From the NCBI RefSeq assembly GCF_008868005.1, contig NZ_WAAO01000002.1, positions 372,001-436,000 of the forward strand: a stretch of DNA of 64,000 nt, in the 5' to 3' direction. This stretch comes from Microbacterium algeriense (GTDB lineage: Bacteria; Actinomycetota; Actinomycetes; Actinomycetales; Microbacteriaceae). The translations under genes were made by a program, and so were the position numbers. The notes beneath the pieces are model-generated. The model was not told the origin of the DNA and searched no databases. It saw only the letters and a list, made by a program, of their open reading frames with translations. Position 1 is the stretch's first letter. Each line of letters begins with the position of its first letter. Below are positions 54,847 through 55,751 of this stretch, one piece after another.

Positions 54847-54944
54847 TGAAACGTGCCCGCCGCTCGCCCGCGAGCGCTTGCGCTGATTGCACACCGACCA
54901 TCGTCGCCCCGGTTTAGACCGGTGCCCCGAAGCTGGAGCCCGCG

Positions 54945-55751
54945 CTGTTTAATCTTGCTGCGACCCTGACCCCCCGACTTGCCTCCGACGGCGAGTTCCA
55001 CGGCCCTTCGATCGACGAGTTCTTCCCGCCGATCCTCTTCCACGTCGGGCCGCTCCCGGTGACCCGGATCCAGCTGATCCAGTTCCTCTCGGTGATCGCT
55101 GTCGTCCTTCTTCTGTGGCTCGGCACGCGGCGCATGAAGGTCGTCCCCGGCCGGTTCCAGAGCGTCGTGGAGATGGGCCTGGGCTTCGTCCGCGGCGGCA
55201 TCGCGCACGACCTGCTCGGCCGCAAGGACGGCGACCGCTTCCTGCCGATCCTCACCACGATCTTCTTCATGGTGCTGTTCATGAACGTGACGGGCATCAT
55301 CCCCGGCCTGAACATGCCGGGAACGGCCATCATCGCGGTGCCGCTCACGCTCGCCGTGGTCAGCTACGTCACCTTCATCTACGCCGGTATCAAGAAGAGC
55401 CCGAAGAACTTCTTCAAGAACGCCCTGTTCCCCTCGGGCGTCCCGTGGCCGGTCTACTTCATCGTCACGCCGATCGAGCTCATCTCGACGTTCATCATCC
55501 GCCCGGTGACCCTCACCCTGCGACTGCTGATGAACCTCGTCGTCGGTCACATGATCCTGGTGCTGTGCTTCGCAGCGACCCAGTTCTTCTTCTTCACCGC
55601 AGGCGGCGGCTGGGCCGTTCTCGGTGTCGGAACCCTCGCCTTCGGCGGTGCCTTCACTCTCTTCGAGATTCTGGTGACCGTCCTGCAGGCCTACGTCTTC
55701 ACCGTCCTCACCGCGGTCTACATCCAGCTCGCGGTCGCAGAAGAGCACTGA
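54945..55751 (+). CDS. atpB: ATP synthase subunit a, probable CTG start
   Basis: Subunit a of the Fo motor, 268 residues from CTG 54945 (230 from the first GTG at 55059). The essential Arg lies in [12 protein letters not shown] (residue 193 from the CTG), and the C-terminal helices are intact. The frame codes a normal N-terminus upstream of 55059 ([18 protein letters not shown]), which subunits a keep, but between the stop at 54915 and 55059 no ATG, GTG or TTG is in frame. GGAG lies 6 nt before the CTG at 54945. The start is therefore unusual, or one base is wrong in the sequence. Confidence 0.85.

Follow-up and report, generated by a model that had tools for sequence, protein, structure and literature searches.

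A conserved, very probable CUG start codon for atpB in Microbacteriaceae, likely old and repeatedly lost

The start codon of infC in Escherichia coli is AUU. Starts outside ATG, GTG and TTG that are kept across species are an already known kind, with examples in Staphylococcus: infC (AUA), ccpN (AUA) and cvfC1 (AUU) have conserved non-AUG starts, and that study puts the output of AUA and AUU starts at about 10% of an AUG reporter, rising to as much as 30% for ccpN in rich medium (PMC13009471). The atpB gene described here resembles these three genes in having a cross-species start outside the canonical set within a conserved Shine–Dalgarno (SD) context. The staphylococcal starts, however, are AUA or AUU with a third-position mismatch; their SDs are extended and the genes have different functions. 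In atpB, which codes for a structural part of ATP synthase, the start would be CUG, with a first-position mismatch, and it would be shared by most of one family and by portions of several more. CUG complexes of the E. coli ribosome show weak first-position pairing, and the authors of that work state that neither wild-type nor mutant initiator tRNA starts efficiently on CUG (PMC11497404). Those complexes are like our proposal in placing fMet-tRNA with a CAU anticodon on CUG, but they were made in the laboratory with a mutant initiator tRNA, unlike the natural and conserved atpB case. In Mycobacterium tuberculosis, CTG is reported not to be enriched at mapped start sites (PMC9094748). Other actinobacterial atpB genes share the homologous gene and N-terminal segment and start at the corresponding place, but they do so with GTG, ATG or TTG, and their SD match is often stronger: many reach -8 to -13 kcal/mol, and some are as weak as at CTG loci. 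We found no paper on a CTG or CUG start of atpB in the open-access literature. Such a start would mean that a central energy gene naturally begins with CUG throughout a clade; bacteria rarely use CTG as a start codon. A gene finder limited to ATG, GTG and TTG must either truncate AtpB by roughly 38 residues or fail to find where it begins.

The window analysed is a 64,000-nucleotide stretch of Microbacterium algeriense DNA. Its atp genes, whose names are tentative except for atpB, lie at about 54.3 to 61.8 kb, and atpB stands ahead of the others in ORF order. AtpB matches PF00119 (E 2.1e-54, 185 bits; cut-off 33.9) and TIGR01131 (130 bits; cut-off 102.6), and the subunit-a profiles leave most of its first 37 residues uncovered. 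At the atpI position (54304-54822) there is a 172-aa membrane-like ORF with no Pfam match at E 0.001. The earlier note on this DNA had claimed that the atpB frame holds no ATG, GTG or TTG between the stop at 54915 and GTG 55059, that GGAG lies 6 nt before CTG 54945, and that starting at 55059 would cost about 38 residues. All three statements held when checked against the window: the stop is TAG 54915-54917, the next in-frame ATG, GTG or TTG is GTG 55059, 38 codons downstream of CTG 54945, and GGAG occupies 54935-54938. After TAG the frame reads ACC GGT GCC CCG AAG CTG GAG CCC GCG CTG(54945) TTT AAT CTT GCT. The SD region also overlaps a second in-frame CTG, at 54933, which in relatives is replaced by TTG or lost. 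The features of the region are collected in Table 1.

Table 1. Coordinates of features in the atpB start region of the window
Feature	Position	Strand	Basis
Probable atpB CTG (CUG) initiation codon	54945..54947	+	alignment of relatives, start calls
Putative Shine–Dalgarno core GGAG, 6 nt upstream of CTG	54935..54938	+	window sequence; invariant in 70-sequence alignment (chosen set)
Conserved linker CCCCGAAG, hairpin to SD	54925..54932	+	70 Microbacteriaceae sequences
Small candidate hairpin CCGGU-UUAG-ACCGG	54909..54922	+	position-anchored stem search
Codons 2-5, TTT AAT CTT GCT, GC3 = 0	54948..54959	+	GC3 profile
atpB (subunit a of F-type ATP synthase), 268 aa if counted from CTG	54945..55751	+	PF00119, TIGR01131
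GTG, first canonical in-frame start, rejected as start	55059..55061	+	unconserved; downstream of FHxPSIxEFFP
Out-of-frame GTG mini-ORF, 15 codons + stop, rejected	54922..54969	+	start codon varies in relatives

We compared the atpB starts of relatives, a check that the earlier note had proposed and that bore out the CTG. The 110 close loci (L001-L110) comprised 80 loci from named genomes, 29 same-genus loci and the window copy (L001), with some species present twice because two collections were used. In the column of 54945, 109 of these loci had CTG and one, from Agromyces, had CTA, with a CTG one codon upstream of it. In 18 of the 110, the frame was free of ATG, GTG and TTG all the way between the upstream stop and a point 120 nt beyond the CTG. 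Because CTG 54945 is conserved across the close loci, chance is excluded. Thus atpB has a putative conserved non-canonical start: the site is SD-spaced, lacks a near in-frame canonical alternative and is kept beyond chance.

Our first start caller was limited to NTG codons; a repeat scan accepted any in-frame codon 4-9 nt behind GGAG. In other genera this unrestricted scan returned CTG alone in 57 of 62 loci, the rest being one locus with two CTG in a row, one with GTG/TTG, two without GGAG and one in which another GGAG was chosen. In close Microbacterium it returned CTG alone in 96 of 109 loci, CTG then TTG in 10 and another GGAG in 3. By eye, none of CTC, CTT, CTA or TTA was seen at the conserved start site in these loci, and across lineages CTG, TTG, GTG and ATG interchange behind the same SD site. 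As a control we examined leucine codons in 159 CTG sequences from the family. The start column was CTG in 153 of 153 leucine rows (6 rows were gapped or shifted), against 2.5-82% CTG in 15 other conserved leucine columns, a comparison that is partly circular because the set was chosen for CTG. The codons that follow are also unusual. In 95 Microbacterium sequences, the GC3 of codons 2-5 was 0.35, 0.11, 0.15 and 0.02, compared with 0.85 for codons 13-32 and 0.92 beyond; in the atpB of the window, codons 2-5 are the sole four-codon run with a GC3 of 0. In other genera the dip is weaker and more irregular, and other families show it only slightly.

GGAG was invariant in an alignment of 70 Microbacteriaceae sequences, in which Microbacterium was sampled and five of the 61 other-genus loci (L146, L152, L153, L159 and L165) were omitted; the invariant CTG of this alignment is a product of selection because its rows were chosen. 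In the linker, the CCCCG columns were at least 90% identical and the A was invariant in the same sequences. A screen for CTG behind an SD across 400 kb from each of two genomes (G000 and G044), earlier versions of which had been dominated by shadow ORFs, gave 19 CTG/CTG cases among 148 ortholog pairs but 30 CTC/CTC decoys, and is therefore unspecific. A CTG with an SD-like site is thus common by chance, and the case for atpB rests on the depth of conservation. Together, the aligned codons, the start scans and the composition of the following codons indicate that CTG 54945 itself is very probably the true start of atpB. That it is a real and old CUG start, placed by the SD and read by the ordinary initiator tRNA, also appears very likely.

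Within Microbacterium, we read 100 of the 193 same-genus genomes that had an atpB match; of 99 called loci, 65 had CTG, 33 TTG and 1 GTG. All of the 30 closest loci had CTG. The 40 mid-range loci had 28 CTG, 11 TTG and 1 GTG by eye, the scan itself having chosen another GGAG in 4 of them, and the 30 mostly weakest matches had 22 TTG and 7 CTG, with one broken locus uncalled. Since weak matches were oversampled, these counts are no fair estimate for the genus. CTG is nevertheless dispensable within Microbacterium, as a third of these same-genus genomes have TTG or GTG. The departures from CTG led to TTG (33) or GTG (1), never to ATG, and amount to at least three changes on the tree. Two loci were excluded from the counts, one cut by a contig end (L071) and one with a broken frame (L239). 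In the latter (G090:C1:2943484-2944292), atpB falls into two overlapping matches with a frame break, which is probably a sequencing error because the genome is only 68% complete and in one contig. Separately, 28 same-genus genomes (L212-L238 and L240) have a far more divergent AtpB, about 55-66% identical compared with 68-98% in the others listed, and mostly a TTG start; either fast evolution or gene replacement may account for this subset. A contig labelled Stenotrophomonas maltophilia (L052, JACEFY010000052.1) carries a Microbacterium-type atp region and is likely to be contamination of that assembly.

An atpB match was present in 248 of the 249 Microbacteriaceae genomes examined. Outside Microbacterium we read 60 loci, covering 54 of the 77 further genera encountered in the family; the Agromyces locus brings the total to 61, of which 60 had CTG and one GTG (L146, counted as such). 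Their start context was mostly CCCCGAAnC[A/T]GGAGnnAGCG-CTG, with an SD duplex energy at the CTG of about -5.6 to -8.7 kcal/mol. Among all the loci, three were set to CTG by eye: L039, one of the close loci, where a TTG further upstream had the highest SD score, L112, where GTG immediately precedes CTG, and L126, where the CTG lay outside the scan range. In L152 the top-scoring CTG was 45 nt upstream and not behind GGAG, and either choice is CTG. Elsewhere in the order, 18 further families contributed 40 loci, among which we counted 16 CTG, 19 GTG, 3 TTG and 2 ATG. For these family-level counts, as for the leucine control, identical coding sequences were merged. A class-level draw of 29 loci had CTG in one further member of the same family (L283) and in three loci from outside the order (L284, L285 and L286; for L286, whose top-scoring CTG was 120 nt upstream, the SD-spaced CTG was used), and the remaining 25 had a canonical codon as the best call. 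Second atpB-like matches were seen in some Microbacteriaceae genomes (two listed places each in G280, G398 and G435, and two matches counted in G377 and G315), which suggests that these genomes have an additional, perhaps paralogous, atp locus or that the genes are split.

To follow the history of the start we used AtpB trees, all three of them quick searches on samples of rows with SH-aLRT values and without bootstrap. On a 106-row tree, built with the N-terminal part excluded and L295 and L307 omitted, all 50 CTG rows fell in one 72-row clade (SH-aLRT 99), and CTG was absent from the remaining 34 rows. CTG versus the rest took 9 changes on this tree, compared with a mean of 35.5 in shuffles, none of 500 being as low. 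One row, L300, is labelled ATG here although its best score was for GTG; both are canonical. On a 112-row tree of Microbacterium and some other genera, from which L240 was omitted as short, CTG versus the rest took 3 changes, to TTG and GTG. The TTG group of Microbacterium was placed outside the rest of the genus under a simpler model, whereas a mixture model nested it among Microbacterium. On account of the one-clade clustering and the few tree changes, CTG is probably old and was lost several times, although the change counts do not separate gains from losses. The three CTG-start AtpB sequences from outside the order, two from family f34 (L284 and L286) and one from f21 (L285), sit inside the CTG clade, while in four further f34 genomes atpB starts with GTG and its product branches in another part of the tree; horizontal transfer of atpB together with its start region is possible for these three.

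Upstream of the SD linker, at a set place, the leader carries a potential stem whose sequence differs by lineage (CCGGU/ACCGG, GCGUG/CACGC, CGCAGGC/GCCUGCG and others). In the window, part of the in-frame stop codon lies inside the loop. A position-anchored search that counted perfect stems scoring at least 4 found one in 98.9% of 95 Microbacterium CTG loci (34% when shuffled), in 93% of the 28 divergent Microbacterium loci with 21 distinct stems (24% shuffled) and in 58% of 60 other-genus loci (29% shuffled). In 16 CTG loci of other families the figure was an unconvincing 50% (36% shuffled). A fixed-register count over 36 distinct hairpins gave 75% paired, compared with 27-64% when the register was slid, the 64% being reached at a one-position slide. 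When RNAalifold was applied to the MAFFT alignment of 70 sequences, it did not find the upstream hairpin (2 pairs, -0.94 kcal/mol), and single-strand folding of the window did not recover it; among six leaders folded as single strands, L126 had a z-score of -2.7 and the others lay between -0.9 and 0.4. A search of 54700-55200 against Rfam returned only P10 sRNA, at 13.4 bits where the gathering score is 37, and left the leader RNA unmatched. The stem counts suggest that a leader hairpin is likely in Microbacteriaceae; beyond the family it is unproven. Because the hairpin is also present with the TTG starts of divergent Microbacterium, it is not tied to CTG.

How might such a start work? We propose that the GGAG 6 nt upstream would position the 30S subunit at CTG 54945, within an SD stretch (CCCCGAAnC[A/T]GGAGnnAGCG-CUG) that is near-constant in most of the family and leads into unusually AT-rich first codons. 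A 16S 3' end able to pair with GGAG was present in four of five genomes examined, but could not be located in the assembly that contains the window. There are two initiator-type tRNA genes, both with anticodon CAT (tRNA-Met(cat)), and a pattern allowing any third anticodon base, which matches the exact stem-loop only, returned no initiator-like tRNA with anticodon CAG. Since only CAT initiator tRNAs were found, the ordinary initiator (anticodon CAU) should read CUG, with a first-position mismatch, and AtpB would begin fMet-Phe-Asn-Leu-Ala.

Why CUG was kept is less certain. ATP synthase has one a subunit per whole c ring, and CUG may have been retained as a weak, possibly IF3-sensitive start that limits synthesis of this once-per-complex membrane subunit. 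We infer that CUG most likely serves to keep the dose of this single-copy subunit low, and give this reason about an even chance. Alternatively, CTG would be the real start but kept by history alone, with changes being rare inside a constrained initiation region; this is a serious possibility that we rate as short of even. The whole initiation region is indeed conserved, and CTG is replaceable, as Microbacterium and several other families have switched away from it. Moreover, neighbouring genes hold their GTG or ATG equally well within Microbacterium: atpE keeps GTG in 115 of 117 and atpF keeps ATG in 112 of 113 alignable loci. Because these starts are equally steady, the stability of the start codon is no proof of selection for weakness. 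However, only one plain switch (L146) occurred among 54 other genera, even though any of three single-base substitutions would strengthen the start, and the switches in Microbacterium went to TTG or GTG, none of them to ATG. This near absence of switches, together with the direction of those in Microbacterium, favours selection for a weak start over history alone. The fuller proposal, in which an actinobacterial atpB clade acquired CUG about once, at its base, and selection kept it as a weak, probably IF3-sensitive dose-setter, with the covarying upstream hairpin as an undescribed leader element, is tentative, and we hold it to be somewhat less probable than not. Selection of a weak start for subunit dosage becomes testable here, as sister lineages with natural TTG, GTG and ATG starts are available for comparison.

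Translation might instead begin at GTG 55059, leaving the first 38 codons untranslated. This GTG is the first canonical in-frame start, and the shorter form of AtpB scores nearly as well (NF004482, 160.0 vs 161.4 bits). But it has no GGAG-like SD in the window, and in the 18 close loci described above no canonical in-frame start exists down to +120. The FHxPSIxEFFP segment, which lies between CTG and GTG 55059, is conserved in frame, including in lineages where a canonical GTG, TTG or ATG start lies upstream of it, and the GC3 dip follows CTG 54945. As GTG 55059 is unconserved and lies after this segment, we rejected it as the start, and the reading is very unlikely. Another potential start, out of frame at 54922, is GTG or ATG in most of the Microbacterium close loci inspected, and could serve atpB through a frameshift or as a coupling leader peptide. 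Its start codon, however, is ACG in L070, GAG in L073 and ACG (CCACGCCCC) in many other genera, and no slippery site was seen by eye. The mini-ORF was rejected in both roles on the strength of the ACG and GAG codons, and we regard its involvement as highly improbable.

The earlier note had left open a choice between a CTG start and an error in the sequence; the first option stood, and the second, a sequencing or assembly error that deleted an ATG or GTG, rests only on a single-genome view, fails because the same CTG and flanks occur in many independently sequenced genomes (identical bases in about 100 other loci) and has a negligible probability. Nor do relatives show an ATG or GTG that is missing from the window through a base error, as the note had envisaged: CTG is shared, and the lineages with TTG, GTG or ATG at the start site cluster on the atpB trees and so are unlike single base errors.

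Many genera (L111-L170, codons 2-6) have a near-palindromic CUG-NUAGCUAACGCU directly after the start, with TTA, CTA or ATA as codon 2. In the other-genus loci, AGCG and CGCU could pair around the start codon.
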